Assembly: GCA_945947575.1 (NCBI GenBank)
Contig: CAMEYM010000004.1
Coordinates: 1-64,000, forward strand
Length of the DNA stretch: 64,000 nt
Reading direction: 5' to 3'
Source: Rhizobium sp. Q54
GTDB taxonomy: Bacteria; Pseudomonadota; Alphaproteobacteria; UBA2966; CAIVPW01
Position numbers and translations under genes: made by a program. The notes under the pieces were generated by a model. It saw only the letters and a list, made by a program, of their open reading frames with translations, did no database searches and was not told the origin of the DNA. Of this stretch, positions 30,011 through 61,923 are shown piece after piece; position 1 is the first letter of the stretch, and each line of letters opens with the position of its first letter.

Positions 30011-30027
30011 CCGGGACTTCGTCCCGG
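30011..30027. repeat. short palindrome between DUF167 and folD
   Basis: CCGGGAC (30011-30017), loop TTC, GTCCCGG (30021-30027). Located in the roughly 140-base gap upstream of folD; may be a REP-like hairpin rather than a terminator because there is no T tail. Confidence 0.4.
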
Positions 30028-30126
30028 CGCCCAGGCGATCGGCGGGTCGCTGCCTGCGCTCCCCGATGGTCATTCCATCCAGTCTCGCCAGTCGCGCAGG
30101 CACGGTTTGTATAGGCGCTCCCGCCC

Positions 30127-41711: not shown

Positions 41712-42131
41712 TCATTTCAGACCCTGAATCGCGCGCATGTAGCCAGCCGGGTCGGCGTTGCGCATGTACTCGAGCACCAGCTCGCGCTGCTCTTCGTTCG
41801 GCACCTGAAAGTCCATCTTGGTCCCGGGTACGAGGGCGCCCGGATTGCGCAGCCACTTCTCCATGGTTGTCTCGGTCCACACGATGCCGGATGCGCGCAG
41901 TTCGGGCGTGTAGTCCCATCCCGGTGCGGTGGCGGCTGTGCGGCCGTAGACGCCCCACAGGTTCGGCGCCTTGCGTCCCGGCCCCGCGCCCTCCGCAAAG
42001 TTGTGGCAGTCGCGGCATTCGCCGAACAGGACTTCGCCCGGATCCATGCCGAAGTACTGCGCCTCGGGCGCCGTCGCGTGCACGAACGACGCGGTCGCGG
42101 CAGCAATGAGGGCGATAGCCAGCCGTGGCAT
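41712..42131 (-). CDS. secreted class I c-type cytochrome, copy 1
   Basis: 139 residues with a signal peptide (LAIALIAAATASFVHA). The heme motif is CRDCH, and the likely Met ligand is in GALVPGTKMDF. The layout (KAPNLWGVYGR, then W-x6-T-x3-W-L-R-NP) matches the cytochrome at 48574, so they are paralogues. It probably carries electrons in the periplasm for the nearby redox proteins. The gene is divergent from the NosR-like gene (35 bases between starts), so both may share a control region. Confidence 0.87.
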   Translation of the reverse strand: MPRLAIALIAAATASFVHATAPEAQYFGMDPGEVLFGECRDCHNFAEGAGPGRKAPNLWGVYGRTAATAPGWDYTPELRASGIVWTETTMEKWLRNPGALVPGTKMDFQVPNEEQRELVLEYMRNADPAGYMRAIQGLK

Positions 42132-42166
42132 GGCGGCTACGCTACTCTGCAGCCCTGACAGACGCC

Positions 42167-44218
42167 ATGTTTCGCGCACTCGTCCTCTTGCTTGTAGTGC
42201 TAACTCCCGTCGCTCCCCACGCGGCGGAGTTGACGGGTCTGCGCGCACGCCTTTCGCCGGAGCTGATCCAGCAAGTCTTTCCCGGCGCGGAGGAGGTCGG
42301 TGACGCCGAAGGGATGCCGCCCGCCCTGCCGGTCCGCATCGGCGGCGCGGTCGCGGGCTACATCTTCTCGACGCGCGATACCGTCAACGCCACCGGTTAC
42401 TCCGGAACGGCCTTCGATCTCATTGGCGGTATCGCGCTGGATGGGCGCATCACCGGCGCGGCGCTGCTCGCCGAGAGCGAGTCGATCCTGGGCCGCGGAG
42501 TCAGCCGCGGCGTGATGGATACGTTCATCGCCGGGTTCGCGGCGGCGACTCTCAACGACTGGCGCGCCGTGCGTCCCGACCAGGTCAAGGGCGCCACCAC
42601 CAGCGCGCGCATGATGAAGAGCGGCATGCAGTCTGCGGCGCGGGTCGTCTCCACCGGCCGCCTGCCGCAAGGCGAGGTGCTCGTGCCGACGCTCGACCGT
42701 GCGCGTGTCGCACCCGCAACGACCGAGGCGATGCGCCGCAGTGGCGCTCTCGTGTCGCTGCGTGCGTCGTACGCCGATGTTGCGCGCGCGTTCACCGCGG
42801 CCGGCGGCGCGCCGATGCACCAACCTCGCGACCCGGCGGCGCCGTTCCTCGACGTCTCGGTTGCCTTGCTCACGCCGCCCGCCATCGGCGCCAACATCGT
42901 CGGGCTGCAGCGCTTCAACGAGGCGATGGATCGCCAAGGCGAGGGCGGCCTCACGGTTTGGATCGCCAGCGTCGGACAATATCCCTACGCCAGCACCGAG
43001 CGTGCGCGACTGCCGACCGGCTTCTTCGAGGAAGTCGTATCGATCGTCCAAGGCAGCATGACGGTGCGCATCGTGCCATCGATGCTGCGCGCCTTGCGCG
43101 CCGTCGGCGGAGGAGCGGAACTCGACGAGCTCGACGCTGCCCTCGTGTTCCTGCCGCCGTCCGCGGGCATCGATCCCTTGGCGCCGTGGCAGCTGGTGGT
43201 AAGCGTCGCCGGCCGCGCGGCGAGCGGTGCCGCATCGGCGGTGCCGTTCACCGTTCCCTACGTTCTCCCCACGGAACACATTCTCCAGCCGCCGCCCGAG
43301 CCGCTGCCCGCCTGGATCGAAGCGTGGCAGCACAAGCGCGTCGACATCGTCGTGCTTCTGGCGCTGCTCGCCACTGTCTCGGCGGTGTTCGTCTTCCAGG
43401 ACGCGCTGGTGCGCCGGCCGGTGGTCTATAGCGGGACGCGAGTTGCAGTCCTTGCCGCGACACTCGTCTGGCTGGGGTGGTGGGCCGGCGGGCAGCTGTC
43501 CATCGTCAACGTTCTCGCCTTCCTGCAGGCGCCGTTCACCGGCACGCCACTCTCGACCTTCCTGCTCGATCCGATCGTGTTGATGCTGTCCGCGTACGTT
43601 GCCCTCACGCTGCTGCTGGTCGGGCGCGGCGTCTACTGCGGCTGGCTGTGTCCGTTCGGTGCGTTGCAGGAGTTGTCCAATCGCGTCGCCACCCTGTTGC
43701 GCGTGCCACAGCTGGGTGTCCCGCGCGCGGTGCAGGAGCGCCTGTGGACGGTGAAGTACATCGTCGCCATCGTCACCATCGTGCTCGTTTTCGTCGCGCC
43801 GGCGCTGTCGCAGAGCGCCGCCGAGGTCGAACCGTTCAAGACCGCCATCAGCGTCAAGTTCGCCCGCGAGGCGCCCTACGTGCTCTACGCCGCCGCCCTG
43901 CTGCTGGTCGGCCTGTTCGTTGAACGCTTCTATTGCCGCTTCTTGTGTCCGCTCGGCGCGTTCCTGGCCGTGATGGGACGGCTGCGCATGGTGCGCTGGC
44001 TGCAACGGCGGCCGCAGTGCGGGTCGGAGTGCCGGATCTGTGAGACGCAGTGCCCCGTGGGCGCCATCGCGCCGACGGGGGCCATCGACATGAACGAGTG
44101 CCTGCAGTGCCTCGATTGCCAGGTCGCTTACCACGACGAGAAGGTCTGTCCGCCCCTGATCGCGCGCGCCAAGCGCCGCGCCGTCCGTGCCGGCGTAATC
44201 AACGCAGAAGTCGCGTGA
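42167..44218 (+). CDS. NosR/NirI-like flavin and iron-sulfur membrane protein
   Basis: 683 residues. Signal peptide, then a periplasmic FMN-binding domain. Its flavinylation-type site is DQVKGATTSA with the acceptor Thr at 144 (the usual S/T before GAT is K here). Then a long periplasmic region, five or six helices, and two YCxWLCP-type motifs (GVYCGWLCPFGALQ, FYCRFLCPLGAFL). At the C-terminus are two 4Fe-4S cores (CGSECRICETQCPVGAI and CLQCLDC). It would move electrons across the membrane. There is no NosZ or NirS here, so the role differs from denitrification; FMN would be attached by ApbE (60925). Confidence 0.88.
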   Translation: MFRALVLLLVVLTPVAPHAAELTGLRARLSPELIQQVFPGAEEVGDAEGMPPALPVRIGGAVAGYIFSTRDTVNATGYSGTAFDLIGGIALDGRITGAALLAESESILGRGVSRGVMDTFIAGFAAATLNDWRAVRPDQVKGATTSARMMKSGMQSAARVVSTGRLPQGEVLVPTLDRARVAPATTEAMRRSGALVSLRASYADVARAFTAAGGAPMHQPRDPAAPFLDVSVALLTPPAIGANIVGLQRFNEAMDRQGEGGLTVWIASVGQYPYASTERARLPTGFFEEVVSIVQGSMTVRIVPSMLRALRAVGGGAELDELDAALVFLPPSAGIDPLAPWQLVVSVAGRAASGAASAVPFTVPYVLPTEHILQPPPEPLPAWIEAWQHKRVDIVVLLALLATVSAVFVFQDALVRRPVVYSGTRVAVLAATLVWLGWWAGGQLSIVNVLAFLQAPFTGTPLSTFLLDPIVLMLSAYVALTLLLVGRGVYCGWLCPFGALQELSNRVATLLRVPQLGVPRAVQERLWTVKYIVAIVTIVLVFVAPALSQSAAEVEPFKTAISVKFAREAPYVLYAAALLLVGLFVERFYCRFLCPLGAFLAVMGRLRMVRWLQRRPQCGSECRICETQCPVGAIAPTGAIDMNECLQCLDCQVAYHDEKVCPPLIARAKRRAVRAGVINAEVA

Positions 44219-51264: not shown

Positions 51265-52068
51265 ATGAACGCCCTCGAGGTCGACATCCAGCGCAAGGTC
51301 TTCGCTTCTCCGACGGGCGGCGAGTTCCTCGCGCTGTCAAAGCTGCAGTTCTCGGTGCCGCGCGGACAGTTCTGCTGCATCATCGGCCCGTCCGGTTCCG
51401 GCAAGACGACCTTCCTGAACATCGTCAGCGGCCTGGACACGGGCTTTGAGGGTGATGTGCGCATTGCGGGACAGCCGCCCGGTGCCGGGCCGCGCCTCGG
51501 CTACATGTTCCAGTCGCCGCGCCTGATGCCGTGGCTGACGGTCGAGAAGAACGTCGAGCTGGTAGCCACTCACCGCGCCATTGCCCAAGGCATGCCGCGC
51601 AAGCTGCTGGAGCAGGTCGGCCTAGGCGCGTCCGTCGATGCCTACCCGAACCGCCTCTCGGGTGGCATGCAGCGCCGCGTGGCGCTCGCCCGAGCCTTCG
51701 TCAACGAGCCGCCACTGCTGCTGCTCGACGAGCCGTTCGTTTCTCTCGATGCGCCGGTTGCCAACCGCCTGCGCGACCTTCTGCTCGACCAGTGGCGCGC
51801 GCGCGGTGCGACGATCGTGTTCGTCACCCACGACCTGCGCGAAGCCATCCAACTCGGCGACCGCGTTGTGTTCATGTCGGCCACGCCTGGTCGCGTCGTG
51901 CTCGACGTCCCGGTGCCGCTCGACCGTCCGCGTCTCGCTGAGGGGGCCGAGGTCGAGAAGTTCCGCGAGCAGCTGCTGCGCGAGCATCCGGCGCTGCTGG
52001 CCGGACTCGAGGCCTCGCGCCTGGCCGAAGGCGAGTCGGTGAAACGCGTTGCTGTGGGAGGAGCCTGA
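51265..52068 (+). CDS. NitT/TauT-type ABC ATP-binding protein
   Basis: 267 residues: Walker A GPSGSGKTT, Q loop FQSPRLMPWLTVEKNV, signature LSGGMQRRVALARAF, Walker B LLLLDEPFVSLD and VTHDLREAIQLGD. SsuB/TauB subfamily. ATG 51265 chosen. The stop TGA overlaps the ATG of the next ATPase gene, so the importer and the PQQ-type exporter ATPase are translationally coupled. Confidence 0.9.
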   Translation: MNALEVDIQRKVFASPTGGEFLALSKLQFSVPRGQFCCIIGPSGSGKTTFLNIVSGLDTGFEGDVRIAGQPPGAGPRLGYMFQSPRLMPWLTVEKNVELVATHRAIAQGMPRKLLEQVGLGASVDAYPNRLSGGMQRRVALARAFVNEPPLLLLDEPFVSLDAPVANRLRDLLLDQWRARGATIVFVTHDLREAIQLGDRVVFMSATPGRVVLDVPVPLDRPRLAEGAEVEKFREQLLREHPALLAGLEASRLAEGESVKRVAVGGA

Positions 52069-52877
52069 TGGACCAGCCGTCGCGCGGAACGCGCGCAGAG
52101 GGCGCGGAGCGCCCCTCCGGGCCGACGCGCGGCGCCGACGTCGCCCTGTCGGTAGCCGATGTCGTCAAGGCCTATGGCCCGAACAGGGCCCTCGACGGCG
52201 TCACCATCACCGTGCGGCGCGGCGAGTTCGTTGCGCTCCTCGGACCGAACGGCGCCGGCAAGTCCACCCTGTTCCAGCTGTTGTCCGGCCTGTTCACACC
52301 CGACGGCGGCGCCATCGAGGTGGCGGGCCACGACATCCGCAAGAATGCGGTGCCGGCGCTCTCCAGCCTCGGCATCGTGTTCCAGTCGCCGACGCTCGAT
52401 CAGGAGCTTTCGGTCCTCGCCAACCTCAAGTTCCATACCGACCTGCATGGCATGCCGCCGCGACTCGCGCGCGAGCGCATCGCCGCAGAGCTCGCTGCCG
52501 TTGGCCTGACCGAGCGCCAGCACGACCACGTGCGCACCCTTTCGGGCGGCAATAAGCGGCGCGTCGAGTTGGCGCGCGCCTTGTTGCATGAGCCGACTAT
52601 TCTCTTGATGGATGAGCCGACCGTCGGCCTGGATCCGCGCAGCCGGCGCGAGATCCTCAGCCACGTGCTGAAGCTCAAGCGCGAGCGGCAGATTGCCGTG
52701 CTGTGGGCTACTCACTTGGTCGACGAGGCGGACGAGTCCGATCGCGTCGTGGTGATGGCGCGCGGCAAGGTCCTGAAGGCAGGCCCCTCGGCCGAGTTGC
52801 GGCGGGATATGGGCACGCAGACCTTGTCGGAGGCGTTCCTCAAGCTTACCGGCGGCGAGTCCAGCGAGGCGGCCTGA
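52068..52877 (+). CDS. ABC ATP-binding protein of the PQQ-alcohol-dehydrogenase-associated system (PedB-like)
   Basis: 269 residues. Walker A GPNGAGKST, signature LSGGNKRRVELARALL, Walker B ILLMDEPTVGLDPRSRREIL and WATHLVDEADESD place it in the ABC-2/CcmA-like group that drives type-2 permeases. The N-terminal 25 residues are disordered. The matching type-2 permease is at 59915, with the binding protein and propeller before it. In Pseudomonas putida the corresponding PedA1A2BC set supports growth with PQQ alcohol dehydrogenases and lanthanides. The split location here is unusual. Confidence 0.82.
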   Translation: MDQPSRGTRAEGAERPSGPTRGADVALSVADVVKAYGPNRALDGVTITVRRGEFVALLGPNGAGKSTLFQLLSGLFTPDGGAIEVAGHDIRKNAVPALSSLGIVFQSPTLDQELSVLANLKFHTDLHGMPPRLARERIAAELAAVGLTERQHDHVRTLSGGNKRRVELARALLHEPTILLMDEPTVGLDPRSRREILSHVLKLKRERQIAVLWATHLVDEADESDRVVVMARGKVLKAGPSAELRRDMGTQTLSEAFLKLTGGESSEAA

Positions 52878-52988: not shown

Positions 52989-54473
52989 GTGATCCGCATT
53001 TATTCCCTGCGTGGCCTGCTGCTGGGCCACAACCTTGCGTTCTTGCTGCTCATCGTCGTCACCGGCGCCATGGGCTGGGTGGGAGTCGAGCTGCGCCAGC
53101 GTGCGGCCGAGGAATCCTTGCGCCTCAATACCTTGATGAGTTTGGTCCAGGAGACGCGCGGCGACGTCTACCGGCAAATGACCGAGGTGTTCGACCACCA
53201 CTTCCTCGGCGAGGCCAATGCCGTCACCGACTATCGCCGCACCAGCGCCCGCATCCTGGCGACCTTCGCCCACATGGAGGACGTCGCCCGCTTGGCCGCG
53301 GAGCGCACCGCAATCGATGGTCTAAAGGAGGCCTACCAAAACGTGCGACGCCGCACCGACCAGATCATGTCGACGCCGTCCATGGCCGTGCGCCAGGCGG
53401 ATCAGTTGGCGGTGTTCTTCACCGCCGACCTGCGTATGGTTTGGCTCGACGACTACGAGCTGCTCTTTGCCCTCAACGACGAGCTCCTGACGGTGGCGCA
53501 GGAGGCCGAGAAGGAGCGCGTCGATACCCTCAGCCGCAACGCCGGGCTGGTACTCCTCATCCCCATTGGCTTGGCGGCGATCCTCCTGTTGTTCTCGCGC
53601 TCGTTCGTGCAGCGTGCATTCGTGCGGCCGATCGGTGACCTGCTGGATGGGTTCGACGCCTTCGCCAAGGGCCAGCTCGACCACAAGGTGCCGGAGCACG
53701 GCGTCACCGAGCTCGTCACCCTGGAGCGAGCGGTCAATCGCATGGCGCAGGAACTCGCGCAAAGCCGCGAGGCGCTGGTCAGCGCCGAGCGTCAGGCGGC
53801 GCTGGGCGCACTGGTGCCGGTCGTTGCGCACAACATCCGCAATCCGCTCGCCGCCATCCGCGCCACCGCGCAGGTGCACGAAGGCCCCGGCACGCCGCGC
53901 GAAGTCGTGCAGGGGCTGAAGGACATCCGCGGCACCGTTGATCGCCTGGAGCGCTGGCTGAGCGCGCTGCTGTCTTACCTCAATCCGCTGCGCCTGGCGC
54001 GCGTCGAGGTGCGCCTGTCGGAGATCTTCGACCAAGCCGTCATGTTCCTGGCGCCGCGCCTCGAGGCCAAGCAGATTCGCCTGCGCCGCGTCGGCTGGGA
54101 CGTTGCGGCGGTCGCCTCCCTCGACGTGCATCTCATGGAGCAGGCGGTGTACGGCTTGCTCTCCAACGCGGTCGAGGCATCGCCGGAGAACGCACCCATC
54201 ACGCTCACCGTGCGCCTGGCAGGACCGAACGTGCAGATGGTGATTGCCGACCGCGGTCCCGGCATGCCGTTCCGTCCGATGCCGGGCGACCTCCACCCGG
54301 GACCGACCACCAAGAGCTACGGCAGCGGCCTGGGCATTCCGTTCGCATTCAAGATTTGCGGCCTGCATCAAGGCATGCTTGAGTTCTCCGCCCGCGAAGG
54401 CGGGGGTACCGAAGTCATCGTGACGTTGCCGGCCGCGCAGTCCGCGCAATCGACCGTCGCCTGGAGCGCATGA
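52989..54473 (+). CDS. membrane sensor histidine kinase
   Basis: 494 residues. TM helix 1 (12-33), a periplasmic four-helix-type sensor of about 150 residues, TM helix 2 (185-203), then HAMP. HisKA has the acceptor H281 in VVAHNIRNPLAAI; HATPase contains DRGPGMPF and SYGSGLGIPFAFKI. GTG 52989 follows a GGAGGA site. Its stop overlaps the start of the sigma-54 regulator, so they form a two-component pair. Confidence 0.9.
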   Translation: MIRIYSLRGLLLGHNLAFLLLIVVTGAMGWVGVELRQRAAEESLRLNTLMSLVQETRGDVYRQMTEVFDHHFLGEANAVTDYRRTSARILATFAHMEDVARLAAERTAIDGLKEAYQNVRRRTDQIMSTPSMAVRQADQLAVFFTADLRMVWLDDYELLFALNDELLTVAQEAEKERVDTLSRNAGLVLLIPIGLAAILLLFSRSFVQRAFVRPIGDLLDGFDAFAKGQLDHKVPEHGVTELVTLERAVNRMAQELAQSREALVSAERQAALGALVPVVAHNIRNPLAAIRATAQVHEGPGTPREVVQGLKDIRGTVDRLERWLSALLSYLNPLRLARVEVRLSEIFDQAVMFLAPRLEAKQIRLRRVGWDVAAVASLDVHLMEQAVYGLLSNAVEASPENAPITLTVRLAGPNVQMVIADRGPGMPFRPMPGDLHPGPTTKSYGSGLGIPFAFKICGLHQGMLEFSAREGGGTEVIVTLPAAQSAQSTVAWSA

Positions 54474-55936
54474 GCGAACCCGCACGCAAGCTCGAAGACG
54501 CCGGCCCGAACGCACGTTCGGGGCAGTCGTGTCGCATCCTCGTGGTCGAGGACGAGACGATGTTCGCGCGCGCGGTGGCGACCTGCCTGCAGCGCGCCGG
54601 GCACATAGTTTCCGTCGCCGGCACGCTCGCCGAGGCCAACAAGCAATTGGCTGCGGCGGCGGCCCAGCCGCCCGACCTGATCATCCTCGACATGCGCCTT
54701 CCCGATGGAGAGGGCTTCGACTTCCTGTCGACGCTCGCCGAGATGGGCGACGCGGCGCCGGCCGTCATCGTCGTCACGGCCTACGGCGATGTCAGTCAAG
54801 CGGTGCGCGCCATGAAACTCGGCGCCTCCGACTATCTCAAGAAGCCCGTCGATCTCGACGAGCTCCTGGTCACCTTGGACAAGGTGATGCGTTCCGCCCG
54901 CCTGCGTTCGCGCCTCAACTACTCGCGTGCCCGCGAGAGCCGCTCCGCCGACACGGTAGCGCTGCTCGGCAATAGTGTCGCGCTGCGTGAGGCGCGCAAG
55001 CAGATCGGGACGATCGCCGCCATCGCCGGCGATGCGTCGCCCACCGTCTTGCTGCTCGGCGAGACCGGCACCGGCAAGGACGTCACGGCGCGGCTCCTGC
55101 ACCGCCTTTCGCCGCGCGCCGAGCGGCCATTTGTGCATGTCGACTGCGCGTCGCTGCCCAAGGACATCATGGAGGCCGAGCTGTTCGGCCATGTGCGCGG
55201 CGCCTTCACGAGCGCACATGTCTCCCGTGCCGGCCTGATCGAGGCGGCCGAGGACGGCACCGTATTCCTGGACGAGATCGGCGAGTTGCCGCCCGAGCTG
55301 CAGGCCAAGCTCCTCAATGTCCTGGAGCGCCGCCTGGTGCGCCGCGTCGGCAGCACCCGCGAGGTGCCGGTGGCGGCGCGCTTCATCGCCGCTACCAACC
55401 GCGATCTCGCGCAGATGGTGGCGCGCGGAGAGTTCCGCGACGACCTCTTCTACCGGCTCAACGTGTTGACCGTCTCGCTGCCGCCCCTGCGCGCCTGCCG
55501 CGAGGACATCCCGCTGCTGGCGCGGCATTTCCTCGAGGCGACGGCGCGCTCCTATGGGCGTCCGACTCCGGCCTTGCGCGATGACGCCGTCGACCTCCTC
55601 AAGGGGTACCCCTGGCCGGGGAACGTCCGCGAGCTCAAGAACGTTATCGAGCGCAGCGCGCTGCTGTCGGGCGATGGCGGCATCACTGCCGACTCGCTGA
55701 ACCTGGCGCCCATCGCGCCGGCGCGGATAGTGCAGCCGTCGCGGGCTCCCGCACCGGCGGCGTCCGAGGACGGAGTCAGTACGCTCGCCAGCGCCGAGCG
55801 CACCATGATCGTTGCCGCACTCCGGGAGACCGCCGGCAACACCTCTGAAGCGGCGCGCCGGCTCGGGGTAACGCGCATGGCGCTGCGCTATCGCATGGAG
55901 AAGTACGGCATCCGCGCCGCGGACTTCGCCGCCTAG
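54470..55936 (+). CDS. sigma-54-dependent response regulator (NtrC family)
   Basis: 488 residues. A receiver with D74 (LIILDMRLPDG) is joined to an AAA+ domain: Walker A GETGTGKD (198-205), the sigma-54 contact loop at 244-249 reading GAFTSA in place of the common GAFTGA, Walker B VFLDEIGEL, and sensor I/II regions. The C-terminal Fis-type helix-turn-helix is NTSEAARRLGVTRMALRYRM. It is coupled to the kinase before it. Two -24/-12 promoters lie just downstream, making the small secreted-protein genes its likely targets. Confidence 0.92.
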   Translation: MSEPARKLEDAGPNARSGQSCRILVVEDETMFARAVATCLQRAGHIVSVAGTLAEANKQLAAAAAQPPDLIILDMRLPDGEGFDFLSTLAEMGDAAPAVIVVTAYGDVSQAVRAMKLGASDYLKKPVDLDELLVTLDKVMRSARLRSRLNYSRARESRSADTVALLGNSVALREARKQIGTIAAIAGDASPTVLLLGETGTGKDVTARLLHRLSPRAERPFVHVDCASLPKDIMEAELFGHVRGAFTSAHVSRAGLIEAAEDGTVFLDEIGELPPELQAKLLNVLERRLVRRVGSTREVPVAARFIAATNRDLAQMVARGEFRDDLFYRLNVLTVSLPPLRACREDIPLLARHFLEATARSYGRPTPALRDDAVDLLKGYPWPGNVRELKNVIERSALLSGDGGITADSLNLAPIAPARIVQPSRAPAPAASEDGVSTLASAERTMIVAALRETAGNTSEAARRLGVTRMALRYRMEKYGIRAADFAA

Positions 55937-55939
55937 CCG

Positions 55940-56209
55940 GTGGCTTCGCGCGGGCCGGGCCTTTGCGTGGCCGCGTGTCTGACCCTTGCCGCATGTGCGG
56001 GCCTGGGCGAGCGGGCCGAGGAGCGCACCTGCCGGACCGGCATCGATCGGCTCGAGGCCGCTATCGCCGGATGGCAGGGCGGCGTCAACGCAAAGACCGA
56101 GGCGGAAAACCAGATCGACTTCGCCGATGGCGCCGCCGATTTCGGCCTTTGGGAGGGTTGCCGCTCCTCGCTCCGACGCGGCTTCCGAGCGCTCGGCCAG
56201 ACCCTCTGA
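55940..56209 (+). CDS. small putative lipoprotein
   Basis: 89 residues starting at GTG 55940, just three bases after the regulator's stop. The N-terminus carries a lipobox-like LAAC (LTLAACAGLGER) at about residue 19, followed by helical sequence with two more cysteines (RTCRTG and EGCRSS). It is likely anchored in the outer or inner membrane. No family recognised. Confidence 0.55.
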   Translation: MASRGPGLCVAACLTLAACAGLGERAEERTCRTGIDRLEAAIAGWQGGVNAKTEAENQIDFADGAADFGLWEGCRSSLRRGFRALGQTL

Positions 56210-56232
56210 CAGCGCCGGGAGCGGTCGCGAAA

Positions 56233-56254
56233 TGGTGGTTGTTATCAACCACCA
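56233..56254 (+). promoter_or_regulatory. palindrome likely to be the enhancer site (UAS) of the sigma-54 regulator
   Basis: TGGTGGTTG (56233-56241), TTAT, CAACCACCA (56246-56254): perfect 9-base arms. It lies 82 bases before the -24 element of the next promoter, the usual place for an NtrC-type enhancer, and just after the regulator operon. Half-site copies TGGTTG also occur near 56991 and 57006 before the second promoter. Confidence 0.65.
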
Positions 56255-56335
56255 ATGGCGATTCCGTGCCCCACGGATCCGGCGCTGCTACCGTCTTAGC
56301 CGCACAAAACCGCCACTTCCTGTGCCTTCCAGGTC

Positions 56336-56350
56336 TGGCATAGGCCTTGC
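56336..56350 (+). promoter_or_regulatory. sigma-54 promoter (-24/-12) for the first secreted beta protein
   Basis: TGGCATAGGCCTTGC: the GG and GC dinucleotides are separated by exactly 10 bases, as in the TGGCAC-N5-TTGC consensus. The gene starts 95 bases downstream. Confidence 0.75.
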
Positions 56351-56444
56351 CAATGGCCGCCATAGGAATCACCGAGCGGGACGCGGGGTCCCGCGGTTTC
56401 TTTCCGCGGCGCGGTGCGCCAATTCACGACCAGGGAGGCTCCCA

Positions 56445-56861
56445 ATGAAGCTCGCTCGTACTCTCGCCCTCGCCAGCATGGTGGCGGTCGGCGTGGCCGG
56501 TTCGGCTGGCGCCGCCGGCAACCTGACCACCGGCGCCGTGGTTATCAAGATCGACATGACGCCGGACAAGAAGTTCTCCACCACCGCGATCGAGATGGAG
56601 ACCGGCAAGGCCTACAACCTCGACATCACCCAACGCGGCACCACCGAGATGCAGTTCCACGCCCCGGACCTGTTCGGCAACTCGTACATCTACCAGGTCG
56701 TCGTCGACGGCAAGGAGATCAAGACCAACGGGGTCCGCTTCTTGGAGTTCGACGAGGCAGGCACCATCCGCCTCAACATGGTTCCGATCCGCGTCGGCTC
56801 GTTCAAGTATTACGTTCTGGGCCAGGAAGGCACGATGACGGGGACCGTCACCGTCAAGTAG
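56445..56861 (+). CDS. secreted beta-rich protein A (sigma-54 controlled)
   Basis: 138 residues with a signal peptide (ALASMVAVGVAGSAGA). The mature 115 residues alternate strands (TTAIEMETGKAYNLDITQRGTTEMQFHAPDLFGNSYIYQVVVDG, RFLEFDEAGTIRLNMVPIRVGSFKYYVLGQEG), a cupredoxin-like order. No cysteine is present, so no classical copper site. A paralogue follows at 57115. GGGAGG site before ATG 56445. It has its own promoter and terminator, so it is probably made in large amounts. Confidence 0.75.
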   Translation: MKLARTLALASMVAVGVAGSAGAAGNLTTGAVVIKIDMTPDKKFSTTAIEMETGKAYNLDITQRGTTEMQFHAPDLFGNSYIYQVVVDGKEIKTNGVRFLEFDEAGTIRLNMVPIRVGSFKYYVLGQEGTMTGTVTVK

Positions 56862-56883
56862 CGCCACCGTCTGGACACGTTCG

Positions 56884-56933
56884 AAAAGGCCGGCTGGTGG
56901 TTGTGGGTAGCCACCAAGCCGGCCTTTCTTTTG
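56884..56933 (+). terminator. strong terminator after secreted protein A
   Basis: About 18 paired bases with one bulge between AAAGGCCGGC-TGGTGG and CCACCA-AGCCGGCCTTT, followed by CTTTTG. It isolates the first secreted-protein transcript. Confidence 0.8.
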
Positions 56934-57019
56934 CGACGGGAAATGCTCGCCGGCCGACATCGGGTCCGCGAGCCACGGAATCCGCCCTAGTGGTTGTTGG
57001 AGTTGGTGGTTGCGACCGA

Positions 57020-57034
57020 TGGCATGAGGCTTGC
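57020..57034 (+). promoter_or_regulatory. sigma-54 promoter (-24/-12) for the second secreted beta protein
   Basis: TGGCATGAGGCTTGC, again with GG and GC separated by 10 bases and close in sequence to the first promoter (TGGCATAGGCCTTGC). The downstream start is GTG 57115, 81 bases away. Two direct TGGTTG half-sites lie just upstream. Confidence 0.72.
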
Positions 57035-57114
57035 CTATCTGAGGTATTGGTAAACGCGATCGGCCCGACGGACTGCTCGGTCCTGCGGCCGCCACGGGCA
57101 CTGGGAGGTACACC

Positions 57115-57540
57115 GTGAAGAAACCACGTTTGTCCGCGGCCGCGCTTGCGCTTGGCCTGGCTTTCACGCCGCCGGCCCTCGCGGCCGGCAATCTCGCGTC
57201 CCGCCCCACGGCCCTCGAGCTGACCCTCCGGTCGGACCTGACCATGTCCAACTACGAGTACACGCTCGAAACCGGGAAGTACTACCGCTGGGACATCACC
57301 ATGGCCGCCGACGGCGAGGAGTTCGCGGTCGCTGCGCCCGAACTGTGGCGCAACTCGTGGATCAACGAGTTCAAGGTCGGCGACCTCGAGATCCACATGT
57401 TCGGCGCACCCTATCAGGTCGAGTTCGACGGCCCCGGCCTGCTGCAGGTCTGGTTCGTGCCCATCCGCCCCGGTGACTACGACTTCTATGTGCCGGGTCA
57501 CGAATCGCGCGGCATGAAGGGCAAGTTCATCGTTCGGTAG
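57115..57540 (+). CDS. secreted beta-rich protein B (sigma-54 controlled)
   Basis: 141 residues, GTG start behind a GGGAGGT site. Signal peptide ends PPALA. It is a paralogue of protein A: ETGKYYRWDITMAADGEEFAVAAPELWRNSWINEFKVGD matches A's ETGKAYNLDITQRGTTEMQFHAPDLFGNSYIYQVVVDG. PFVPIRPGDYDFYV matches MVPIRVGSFKYYV. No cysteine. The role may be to carry a ligand or cofactor in the periplasm for the PQQ-linked genes that follow. Confidence 0.75.
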   Translation: MKKPRLSAAALALGLAFTPPALAAGNLASRPTALELTLRSDLTMSNYEYTLETGKYYRWDITMAADGEEFAVAAPELWRNSWINEFKVGDLEIHMFGAPYQVEFDGPGLLQVWFVPIRPGDYDFYVPGHESRGMKGKFIVR

Positions 57541-57606
57541 CGCTCTTTCGCGCGCCCACATACTCGTCTGTGCCCACCGGCCGCAGACCCTCGACAGGAG
57601 GTCGCC

Positions 57607-58650
57607 ATGGCAACTTCACTCTGGACCCCGAACCGGCGCAGCCTTCTGAAGGCTGGCGCCGCGGGCGCCGCCCTCGCTGGCGCCCCGCTGGCAATGCATA
57701 CGGCGCAGGCGGTGGGCACCGGCCGCATCTACATCAGCCACGAGAAGTCGCATGAACTGACGGTCCTCGACGGCACCAGCTTCCAGGTGGTGAAACGCAT
57801 CAAGACCTCGCGCCGTCCGCGCGGGATGGTGTTCAACCCGGCGCACACGCTGCTGTACGTCGCGTGCGGTGACGAGGACGTCGTCGATGTCATCGATGTC
57901 GCTAAGGAGGCGGTCGTCGATGCAATTCCGACCGGTCCAAGCCCCGAGGTGCTGACCATCAGTCCTGACGAAAAGACGATGTTCATCGCCAACGAGGAAG
58001 ACTCCTCGATGTGGATCATCAGCATCGAGGACAAGGTGTTGCTGCACGAGGTCCCCTCGGGCGCGGAGCCGGAAGGCGTGCTGGTCGTGCCCGACGGCAA
58101 GCTCGTCTACTTGACCTCGGAAGTGGCCGACATGATCCACAAGGTGGACGTTGCGCGCGGCATCATCCTCGACAACGTCGTCGTCGGTACGCGTCCCCGC
58201 AGAATGCGTATTACGCCCGACCAAAAGGAGTTGTGGATCACCTGCGAGCTGTCGGGCGAGGTCTACATTGTCGATGTCGCCAGCTACAAGGTGACCGACG
58301 TCATCAATTTCCTGCCGCCCGGCTTCCGACAGGTGGACGTGACGCCCGTAGGCCTGGAGATGACTGCCGACGGCAAGAAGGTGTGGGTCACGCTCGGCCG
58401 CGCCAATCATGTCGCCGTCGTCGATGTGGCAACCCGAAAGATCGAACAGTACATCCTGGTCGGCTCGCGCCCCTGGGGCATCACCTTCACGTCCGACGAG
58501 AAGACGGCGCTGGTCGCCAATTGCCTCTCGGACGATCTGTCGATCGTCGATATCGCCTCGAAGCGCGTGCAGAAGTCTGTCCCGACCGGCCGCGTGCCGT
58601 ACACGCCGCTGGTCAACGATCGTATCGGTTGGGCGCCCGTCGGTAACTGA
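57607..58650 (+). CDS. PQQ-catabolism-associated YVTN beta-propeller protein (Tat-exported, PedA2-like)
   Basis: 347 residues. A Tat motif (NRRSLLKAGAAGAALAG) precedes a seven-bladed propeller of YVTN repeats: RIYISHEKSHELTVLDG, LYVACGDEDVVDVIDV, MFIANEEDSSMWIISI and so on to LVANCLSDDLSIVDIASKRV. It is the beta-propeller regularly encoded with PQQ-dependent alcohol dehydrogenase ABC systems. It probably binds a substrate, metal or protein in the periplasm for the transporter. AGGAGG precedes ATG 57607. Confidence 0.87.
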   Translation: MATSLWTPNRRSLLKAGAAGAALAGAPLAMHTAQAVGTGRIYISHEKSHELTVLDGTSFQVVKRIKTSRRPRGMVFNPAHTLLYVACGDEDVVDVIDVAKEAVVDAIPTGPSPEVLTISPDEKTMFIANEEDSSMWIISIEDKVLLHEVPSGAEPEGVLVVPDGKLVYLTSEVADMIHKVDVARGIILDNVVVGTRPRRMRITPDQKELWITCELSGEVYIVDVASYKVTDVINFLPPGFRQVDVTPVGLEMTADGKKVWVTLGRANHVAVVDVATRKIEQYILVGSRPWGITFTSDEKTALVANCLSDDLSIVDIASKRVQKSVPTGRVPYTPLVNDRIGWAPVGN

Positions 58651-58673: not shown

Positions 58674-59909
58674 ATGAACCGACTGATAGCGATCCTCGGT
58701 GCGGCGTTGCTGGCAGTGCTCGGCACCGGCGCTGTGTGGGCGCAAGGCGTTGCCCCCGCAGCCCCGCCGACGTTGTTCAAGATCGGCTATGTCGATATCG
58801 AGGATGACCCGCGCTACGACCGCGAGTTCGTCTACGCTCTTACTCAACCGGGCCGGGAGCGCGTGCGCATCCCGTCCGTCGCGCGCTATCAGCCGTTTCC
58901 GGGCGCGCAACTCGCCATTGATGAGTCGAACCAGACCGGGCGCTTCTCGGGCAACTCATTCGAGCTGATCCGTCACAGCGGCGCCGATGCAGCCGGCCTG
59001 GTTGCCTGGATCGAAAAGGCTCGCGCCGAGCAGGGCATCAACTTCTTCCTGATCGACGCCGACACAAATACGACGCGAGCCGTCAGCCAGGCGGTGCGCG
59101 GCCAAGAGGTGATGCTATTCAACGTCACCAACCCGGACGATCGTCTGCGCGGGGCGTTCTGCGCGCAGAACCTCCTGCACACGGCGCCGAGCTACAACAT
59201 GCTCACCGACGCGGTGACGCAGTACCTGGTGTTCCAGGGCTGGGTGAACATCTTGCTGCTCACCGGTCCGCTTGAGGAAGACGTCAAGGTGGCGGAGGCA
59301 CTCAAGCGCTCGATCCGGCGCAACGGTGCGCGCCTGGTCGAGGAGCGCAAGTTCCTCCCCTCCAACGATCCGCGCCAGCGCGAGCTCAACAACACGCGTC
59401 TGCTCACCGGCGGCAACCGCGACTACGACGTCGTGTTCATCGCCGACACGGATGGCGAGTTCGCGCGCACCTTCCCCTATCAGACCGTACGCGCGCGCCC
59501 CGTGGTCGGCGCGGCGGGCCTCACGCCCGAAGCGTGGCATTGGACCTGGGAGCGGCAAGGCGCGCCGCAGCTGTCCAGCCGCTTCCACACCGCCAATAAC
59601 CGGTTCATGTACGGACCGGACTGGTCGGCATGGGCGGCAGTACGGGCGCTCACGCTCGCGCAGAGCCGCGTCAAGTCGCTCGACTATCGCCAAGTTCGTG
59701 AGTACGTGCTCAGCGACCAGCTGCGCTTCGACGGATACATGGGCAGTCAGCTCGATTTCCGCGCATGGGACCACCAGTTGCGCATGAACGTCTTCCTGAC
59801 GCTGCCCAATGCGGTCATCGCGCGTGCGCCGATGGAGAAGTTCGAGCACGCCACCAACGATCTTGATACTCTTGGTGTAGATCGGCCGGAAACGACCTGC
59901 AGGTTCTAG
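58674..59909 (+). CDS. PQQ-associated ABC substrate-binding protein (PedA1-like)
   Basis: 411 residues: a signal peptide (AILGAALLAVLGTGAVWAQ), then a type I periplasmic-binding fold starting FKIGYVDIEDDPRYDREFVYALTQPGRERVRIPS. The N-terminal part and GQEVMLFNVTNPDDRLRGAFCAQNLLHTAPSYNMLTDAVTQYLV are characteristic of the binding proteins found in PQQ-alcohol-dehydrogenase ABC systems. It ends 5 bases before the permease start. GGGAGGGCAGGAG site upstream. Confidence 0.88.
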   Translation: MNRLIAILGAALLAVLGTGAVWAQGVAPAAPPTLFKIGYVDIEDDPRYDREFVYALTQPGRERVRIPSVARYQPFPGAQLAIDESNQTGRFSGNSFELIRHSGADAAGLVAWIEKARAEQGINFFLIDADTNTTRAVSQAVRGQEVMLFNVTNPDDRLRGAFCAQNLLHTAPSYNMLTDAVTQYLVFQGWVNILLLTGPLEEDVKVAEALKRSIRRNGARLVEERKFLPSNDPRQRELNNTRLLTGGNRDYDVVFIADTDGEFARTFPYQTVRARPVVGAAGLTPEAWHWTWERQGAPQLSSRFHTANNRFMYGPDWSAWAAVRALTLAQSRVKSLDYRQVREYVLSDQLRFDGYMGSQLDFRAWDHQLRMNVFLTLPNAVIARAPMEKFEHATNDLDTLGVDRPETTCRF

Positions 59910-59914
59910 GCGCC

Positions 59915-60805
59915 GTGACCGCACAGCTCACAACGGAAACCACTTTCACGGGGGCCGACAACCGCCGTCGCGCGTCGCCGTTTGTGCACTGGAGCCTGGC
60001 GCTCTACGCCATCGCCAATCGCGAGATCGGCAAGTTCATTCGCCAACGCGGCCGCTGGGCATCGGCGCTGATCCGGCCGATTCTGTGGCTGGTCGTGTTC
60101 GCCGCCGGCATCGGCAGCCTGCTCGGCATCTCGATCGTGCCGCCGTACCAGACGTATGTGACGTACCAGGAGTACATCATGCCGGGCCTGCTCGGCATCG
60201 TGCTGCTGTTCTACGGCATGCAGTCCTCGCTCTCGATGGTCTACGACCGCGAGATGGGCATGATGCGCCTGCTGCTGACTGCGCCGCTGCCGCGCTGGGC
60301 GATCCTGCTTTTCAAGCTGCTCGGTGCGACGTTCCTGGCGGTGATCCAGGCGTACATCTTTCTGCTCATCACCTACGGCTTCAGCTTCATCTTCCCGCGC
60401 CTCACCGCGGCGCTGCCGTGGTCGGGCTGGCTGTACGTGCTCGGACCGCTGTTCCTCGGTGGCATGATGTTGTCGTCGGTCGGCCTCTTGCTCTCGGTGT
60501 ACATCCGCCAGCTCGAGAACTTCGCCGGTGCGATGAACTTCGTGATCTTCCCGATGTTCTTCATCTCGCCCGCGCTCTATCCCCTGTGGAAGCTGCGCGA
60601 GGTCGGCGCCGATGTCGTCTACTGGGGCGCCCAGATCAACCCGTTCACCCACGTCATCGAACTGATCCGCTACTCGATCTACGGCCAGTTCAACGGCATC
60701 GCCTTAGCGGTGGTGGTGGGCGTCACGCTGGCGTGCTTCGTCCTCGCCGCCATCGGCTACGACCCGCAGCGCGGCATGATCCAGCGCATTGGCCGAGCTA
60801 ACTAG
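59915..60805 (+). CDS. PQQ-associated ABC-2 type permease (PedC-like)
   Basis: 296 residues, GTG start at 59915. Six helices of the ABC-2/NodJ type: WASALIRPILWLVVFAAGIGS, YIMPGLLGIVLLFYGMQSSLSMVYDREMGMMRLLLTAPLPRW, and later FPMFFISPALYPLWKLREVG. ABC-2 permeases usually export; the partner ATPase is at 52068. With the binding protein and propeller it makes the PedA1A2BC-like set. Confidence 0.88.
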   Translation: MTAQLTTETTFTGADNRRRASPFVHWSLALYAIANREIGKFIRQRGRWASALIRPILWLVVFAAGIGSLLGISIVPPYQTYVTYQEYIMPGLLGIVLLFYGMQSSLSMVYDREMGMMRLLLTAPLPRWAILLFKLLGATFLAVIQAYIFLLITYGFSFIFPRLTAALPWSGWLYVLGPLFLGGMMLSSVGLLLSVYIRQLENFAGAMNFVIFPMFFISPALYPLWKLREVGADVVYWGAQINPFTHVIELIRYSIYGQFNGIALAVVVGVTLACFVLAAIGYDPQRGMIQRIGRAN

Positions 60806-60924
60806 CAGAAAACATTAGATTTTTTGCGCTCTTCCCGGCCCGCCATGTCCACCGGAAGGTGTGCTAAAAGGGAGCGCCGCGCGGACGGGTGTTTCTGGGC
60901 GGCATGGGAGGAGTTCACACCGCC

Positions 60925-61923
60925 ATGGCCGCCGCTCCAAGCCGTCGTCGTGTTCTAGCGATCTTCGGCGCCGCCGCAGGAATGTCTCTCGCCGGCGCCA
61001 TGCGCCCGGCCCGCGCGGACGCTCAGTTCTTCACGTGGCAGGGCACGGCGCTCGGCGCTGACGCCTCTCTCACGCTGGCTCACACCTCTGCGGTGGCCGC
61101 CCAGCGCATCATCGACAGGGCGGTGGCGGAGGTGCGAAGGCTTGAAGCGATCTTCAGCCTGCACCAACCGGACAGCGAGATTGCGCGGCTGAACCGCGAC
61201 GGGCGCATCACGCGGCCCTCCCAGGACATGCTGGTCCTGTTGACCGAGGCCAAGCGCTTCGGCGAATTGAGCAACGGCGCGTTCGACGTGACCGTGCAGC
61301 CGCTCTGGAACCTGTATTCCGCGCACTTCAAGCGCTCGCCCGATGCGACCGAAGGACCAACTGCCGCCGACATTCGTGCCGCGGTCGCCCTGGTCGATTA
61401 CCGTCGCATCGACATCAACCCGCTCTTCGTCGCTCTCGATCGCAAGGGCATGGGCGTGACCCTCGACGGCATCGCCCAGGGCTACATCACCGACAAGGTC
61501 GCTGATCTGTTGCGCGAGCAGGGCATCGCCCACGTTCTCGTCGATCTCGGCGAGGCCCGCGCTCTGGGCAACCATCCCGAGGGCCGGCCCTGGGTCATCG
61601 GCCTCAAGGATCCGCAGCAGCCGGCACGCGTTGCGCGCTCGATCGACCTCGCCAACATGTCGCTGGCGACGTCCGGCGGCTACGGCACCGTGTTCGACGC
61701 CCGCGGGCGCTTCCACCACCTGTTCGATCCGCGCACCGGCACCAGCGCCGCGCACCACATCGGGGTGTCGATCGTCACCCCGCGCGCGACCCACGCCGAC
61801 GCGCTCTCCACCTCGGTGTACGTATCGCCGGCGTCCGAGACCGAGCGCATCCTGCGCCGCCACGGCAACGCGACTGCCTACGTCACCTATCCGGACGGCA
61901 CCACCCGTACCTTCTCGGCGTAG
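60925..61923 (+). CDS. apbE: FAD:protein FMN transferase (ApbE), Tat-exported
   Basis: 332 residues. A Tat motif SRRRVLAIFGAAAG precedes the ApbE domain. LGADASLTLAHTS, FSLHQPDSEIARLN, FDVTVQPLWNLY, GMGVTLDGIAQGYITDKVADLL, VDLGEARALG, SLATSGGYGTVFDARGRFHHLFDPRTG and THADALSTSVYV are all family motifs. It links FMN to a threonine in target proteins; the NosR-like protein at 42167 has such a site. ATG 60925 is preceded by GGAGGAG; GTG 60889 and ATG 60904 are alternatives. Confidence 0.9.
   Translation: MAAAPSRRRVLAIFGAAAGMSLAGAMRPARADAQFFTWQGTALGADASLTLAHTSAVAAQRIIDRAVAEVRRLEAIFSLHQPDSEIARLNRDGRITRPSQDMLVLLTEAKRFGELSNGAFDVTVQPLWNLYSAHFKRSPDATEGPTAADIRAAVALVDYRRIDINPLFVALDRKGMGVTLDGIAQGYITDKVADLLREQGIAHVLVDLGEARALGNHPEGRPWVIGLKDPQQPARVARSIDLANMSLATSGGYGTVFDARGRFHHLFDPRTGTSAAHHIGVSIVTPRATHADALSTSVYVSPASETERILRRHGNATAYVTYPDGTTRTFSA

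Follow-up and report, generated by a model that had tools for sequence, protein, structure and literature searches.

The closest described relatives of this locus are the PedA1A2BC/Lut lanthanide ABC importers of Pseudomonas putida and Methylorubrum extorquens, which share with it the same set of NCBIfam subunits: a PQQ-associated beta-propeller, a substrate-binding protein, an ATPase and a permease. As in the source genome studied here, these systems come with small exported proteins and with PQQ-alcohol dehydrogenases in the genome. PedA1A2BC is required for the growth of P. putida at low lanthanide (PMC6839425), and the lut genes, two exported proteins among them, act in lanthanide uptake by M. 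extorquens (PMC7391723). Regulation of ped has been described in terms of the LuxR-type AgmR and PedS2-PedR2 (PMC12997753, PMC6115532). The control of bacterial rare-earth metal uptake is a young field.

Bacterial enhancer-binding proteins work by a route in which the phosphorylated regulator binds a palindrome, loops the DNA and remodels the sigma54-polymerase. In this study, a window of 64 kb (the whole stretch of DNA analysed) from a 2.49-Mb genome (G000) was compared with seven relatives in the same bacterial family (G001-G007). The initial annotation had proposed two sigma-54 promoters with an exact 10-base gap between GG and GC, a secreted-protein gene after each, a palindrome 82 bases ahead of the first, and an NtrC-type activator in the operon just upstream; each of these elements was recovered. 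The first promoter, P1 (-24/-12; TGGCATAGGCCTTGC; 56336..56350, + strand), lies 82 bp past the 20-bp core of the enhancer-like palindrome UAS1 (56233..56254) and precedes secA (56445..56861, +). The second, P2 (TGGCATGAGGCTTGC; 57020..57034, +), was assigned by exact motif match and conservation and precedes secB (57115..57540, +); two additional GTGGTTG half-sites, at 56990 and 57006, lie directly 5' of it (56990..57012, +). We consider it quite likely that a sigma-54 regulon has its core at the P1/P2 locus, is centred on the kinase at 52989 and the NtrC-type regulator at 54470, and has outputs that include lanthanide import.

The two regulatory genes are coupled by a 4-base overlap. The first (52989..54473, +) encodes a sensor histidine kinase with HAMP, HisKA and HATPase_c domains in Pfam; its orthologues in five relatives show 67-93% identity, and no recognised metal-binding domain was found in it. 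The second (54470..55936, +) encodes a response regulator with a receiver, a sigma-54 AAA+ domain with Walker A and B motifs, and a Fis-type HTH, which places it in the NtrC family. It is followed by orf89 (55940..56209, +), a small lipoprotein-like ORF that tblastn found to be kept in part of the genus. Regulator orthologues occur in all seven other family genomes at 67-88% identity and near full length, with a truncated copy in G006, and identity falls to 44% for the best match outside the family. Every family orthologue checked carries GAFTSA in place of GAFTGA in the activator loop, and nearly all outgroup homologues checked carry GAFTGA; a literature search on GAFTSA found nothing relevant.

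Which protein acts at the palindromes is the point at which another explanation fares best. The promoters may be real and yet be served by another NtrC-family protein, with the adjacent two-component pair controlling something else. A paralogue could bind the palindromes because the source genome encodes other NtrC-type proteins (24 matches to the regulator query), and GGTGG...CCACC palindromes are found near sigma-54 motifs in unrelated bacteria too. Against this, in most genomes of the family the regulator gene has UAS1/P1 directly 3' of it, the regulator HTH is nearly invariant in the alignment of orthologues, and a regulator paralogue in G002 itself sits behind an enhancer-linked sigma-54 promoter. 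Control by another activator is, on this evidence, rather improbable, and the adjacent regulator is the predicted ligand of the sites.

UAS1 reads TGGTGGTTG-N4-CAACCACCA, with ttat at its centre, and is identified by genome search and family conservation. The 20-bp core recurs exactly at only one further place in the genome, on contig C5, where it stands 81 bp ahead of a third promoter (TGGCAT-N4-CTTGC), as against 82 bp at UAS1/P1. The family sites yield the operator consensus GGTGGYT-N6-ARCCACC, and the source genome has just three matches to its relaxed form, GGTGGNTN6ANCCACC: at UAS1, at the C5 site and at a second site in the window, UAS2 (GGTGGTTGTGGGTAGCCACC; 56896..56915). The three regulon promoters each have one of these sites 81-104 bp upstream, UAS2 being 104 bp ahead of P2. 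The initial annotation named a single palindrome and missed UAS2; P2 does not share UAS1 but has its own enhancer-like site inside the terminator of secA.

This position of UAS2 bears on a second alternative, namely that the palindromes act purely as RNA hairpins, terminating or attenuating transcription of the genes upstream, and have no enhancer role. In G000, G002 and G003, UAS2 makes up the upper part of the stem in a strong terminator-like hairpin accompanied by a T-tract (in the window at 56885..56933, +, 3' of secA, -35.1 kcal/mol). However, UAS1, the C5 site and the sites at the cold-shock genes described below have no T-tract, and the exact sequence of the 7-bp arms is conserved, beyond mere complementarity. 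The spacing between palindrome and promoter is also helically phased, as looping by an enhancer-binding protein predicts: distances group at about 50, 61, 72, 82, 93 and 103 bp (Rayleigh p ~3e-6 over all 21 sites, which are non-independent, and p=0.006 once these are collapsed to ten classes). Sites found later agree with the phasing (84 bp for P1 of G003, 63 bp for P2 of G004, 93 bp in G005 and 93 bp for P1 of G006), and one cold-shock site, at 86 bp, is out of phase. A purely RNA role for the palindromes is thus very unlikely. Read as an enhancer to which the regulator is predicted to bind, UAS2 would represent an unusual economy, being kept within a transcription terminator.

P1 and P2 both fit GG-N10-GC and the consensus TGGCAY-N4-YTTGC. 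The pattern TGGCAYNNNNYTTGC has exactly two exact matches on both strands of the window, which are P1 and P2, whereas shuffled controls gave a mean of 0.16 matches and two matches in none of 100 shuffles. With two mismatches allowed, 55 sites were found in the window against 52.5 by chance, so the sigma-54 pattern is informative only in its exact form. That chance count is what speaks for regarding the motifs as accidents of a GC-rich sequence, with the genes using sigma-70 promoters instead, a reading already contradicted and practically to be discarded, since exact matches exceed chance, a search of 55900-57700 gave no sigma-70-like site, and conservation of the module spans genera. RpoN, on which the promoters are predicted to depend, is encoded in the source genome (PF04552, 228 bits).

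The arrangement is a family trait. In G001-G007 the gene order is kinase, regulator, palindrome, P1, secA, (palindrome, P2), secB, beta-propeller, binding protein, permease and ApbE, with some genes lost or replaced; in G001 the sigma-54 motif of P2 has been lost. A search for the promoter together with the initial-transcribed motif found 17 sites, spread over seven of the eight genomes of the family, whereas the reversed control gave one; 16 of the 17 stand at regulon operons or at a regulator paralogue. In G002 (L082:8604-13277), such a paralogue is followed by a TonB-dependent receptor gene with its own TGGCAC-N5-TTGC motif; no orthologue of this receptor was found in the source genome. A scan of about 85,000 genomes, one per species, for the combined module matched 13 stretches, 8 of them in MAGs of the source's family; matches in Nitrospirae (L099), Massilia (L107) and Oligoflexia (L105) were also obtained and were inspected for their gene context. 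Two loci, L101:2820-3080 and L103:5590-5750 (Methylotenera), carry clean GGTGG...CCACC palindromes before sigma-54 motifs but adjoin unrelated genes; they are probably independent sigma-54 systems.

The genes around the promoters suggest what the regulon may deliver. Both secA and secB have predicted signal-peptide-like N-termini, and the two are paralogues (34-36% identity). The AlphaFold2 model of secB (pLDDT 84.3) is a beta-sandwich whose PDB fold matches are cupredoxins; the mature protein contains no Cys and has FYVPGHE where the copper-ligand Cys of a type-1 copper cupredoxin is expected. Directly 5' of the kinase lies a gene for a PedB-like ABC ATPase (52068..52877, +; TIGR03864), and secB is followed by genes for a PedA2-like, Tat-exported YVTN beta-propeller (57607..58650, +; TIGR03866), a PedA1-like substrate-binding protein (58674..59909, +; TIGR03863), a PedC-like ABC permease (59915..60805, +; TIGR03861) and, kept downstream of the importer genes, an ApbE-family FMN transferase assigned by Pfam (60889..61923, +). 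The four Ped/Lut models thus occur together; three score above cut-off and TIGR03863 just under it (403.6 bits against 413.6). The C5 operon encodes subunits homologous to these ABC proteins, at a greater distance. In the window, 42125-44218 encodes a NosR-like FMN/ferredoxin membrane protein, which scores 481 bits on NF046105 and so stays below the cut-off; a gene beside the C5 operon encodes a protein with a similar Fer4_5 domain, possibly a substrate of the ApbE protein at 60889.

The source genome also encodes 13 PQQ-alcohol-dehydrogenase homologues (on C12, C31, C40, C5:47-56 kb, C6, C2 and C27), four of which are grouped on C5, close to the second regulated ABC operon. All eight that were aligned have Asp-x-Asp at the catalytic site, a lanthanide-associated signature in these enzymes. 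By homology with the Ped/Lut systems, the regulon most likely serves to import lanthanides for these Asp-x-Asp enzymes. In other Alphaproteobacteria, secB homologues lie inside Ped/Lut clusters at most loci inspected; sigma-54 promoters were absent from such loci outside the family, suggesting that the family stands out by its wiring and not by its gene set.

The transcribed leaders have conserved features of their own. The initial transcribed region of P1 (ATAGGAAT; 56362..56395, +) is conserved, as is a leader hairpin with a T-rich tail, and the hairpin GGGACGCGGGGTCCC is common to P1 leaders. The ABC-operon promoters (the same interval in the window; L010, L092 and L095) have a conserved ATTGG-A4-N-CCAAT-like element that begins at about +1 and is absent from the cold-shock promoters. 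Although its pairing beats slid registers, 1488 of 2000 shuffles of the 3' letters pair equally well, so there is no support for an RNA structure in this element; no covariation was found in it either. Rfam gave no matches in the eight family loci searched; its only matches in the window, a ZMP/ZTP riboswitch (30022-30105, - strand, 66 bits) and a tRNA, are both distant.

The predicted circuit also extends beyond this locus. Another three exact modules, spread over three genomes, each stand ahead of a cold-shock-domain gene, which in the source genome lies at C29:8750-8947 (L143, - strand; orthologues L142 and L144-L148). TGGCAC-N5-TTGC precedes the start of the orthologues in seven of seven genomes, and the palindrome, degraded in two of them, lies a further 50-92 bp upstream in all seven; five other csp genes examined had neither element. 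The initial annotation had predicted a complete local circuit: family conservation supports a sigma-54/NtrC-type circuit, but one that is not local only, as it takes in the C5 operon and adds the cold-shock gene as a candidate target.

In G001-G004, a short non-coding stretch behind a sigma-54 motif carries a CCTCCC (CCUCCC) anti-Shine-Dalgarno motif and a strong terminator-like stem; it is an apparent small RNA that we regard as a lead (G001, L084:9233-9405, +; G002, L082:10562-10700, +; G003, L083, position 8765 of the reverse complement, - strand; G004, L209:1501). This candidate adjoins the regulator locus in three of the four genomes, and no enhancer was found for its promoter. The pattern has one match per genome of the genus and none in the reversed control; in the source genome, the sole match is the csp leader. 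It is conceivable, though doubtful, that NtrC-type/sigma-54 lanthanide control has a post-transcriptional arm, made up of a dedicated RNA-binding Csp within the regulon and, in several relatives, the CCUCCC small RNA with its sigma-54 promoter, in which Csp may act on the leader hairpins and the UAS2 terminator.

In the mechanism favoured here, the kinase, when stimulated by the signal it presumably senses, would phosphorylate the regulator, which would oligomerise on the GGTGGYT-N6-ARCCACC operator. From this position, which usually lies 80-105 bp ahead of the promoter on one constant helical face, the bound regulator would remodel RNA polymerase-sigma54 at TGGCAY-N4-YTTGC. P1 would then drive secA; P2, with UAS2 in the secA terminator, would drive secB and the Ped/Lut-type ABC genes; the third site, on C5, would serve a second ABC operon homologous to the first, and the cold-shock gene would be driven from sites of a fourth class.

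The literature searched, which covered few subscription papers, yielded no description of an NtrC-type sigma-54 circuit for Ped/Lut-type genes. The exaA gene of Azospirillum brasilense is reported to be under sigma-54/LuxR-type control (Singh et al. 2017, cited in PMC6115532). By that account it is a case of alphaproteobacterial sigma-54 use for a PQQ alcohol dehydrogenase, but its activator is LuxR-type and its target an enzyme, whereas here the regulator is NtrC-type and the predicted targets are importer operons. NtrC, AtoC and ZraR resemble the present regulator in domain order, in a palindromic enhancer about 100 bp upstream and in the sigma-54 promoter. However, the regulator falls below the cut-off of every named NCBIfam equivalog (NtrC, AtoC, ZraR and PrsR; 386 of 714 bits for AtoC), has the GAFTSA loop, and has a different putative operator. 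The PrsK-PrsR PEP-CTERM system likewise pairs a kinase with a Fis-type sigma-54 regulator and sigma-54-dependent exported proteins, but the present regulator scores 353.7 of 502.6 on TIGR02915 and its predicted targets are Ped/Lut genes. For lake bacteria with an abundance of lanthanide-type alcohol dehydrogenases, this compact NtrC/sigma-54 regulon, whose operator is defined, provides another wiring that is open to direct test. Because the known Ped regulators are LuxR-type and that of the source genome is NtrC-type with sigma-54 promoters, the locus appears to represent a new wiring of a known system rather than a new kind of machine.
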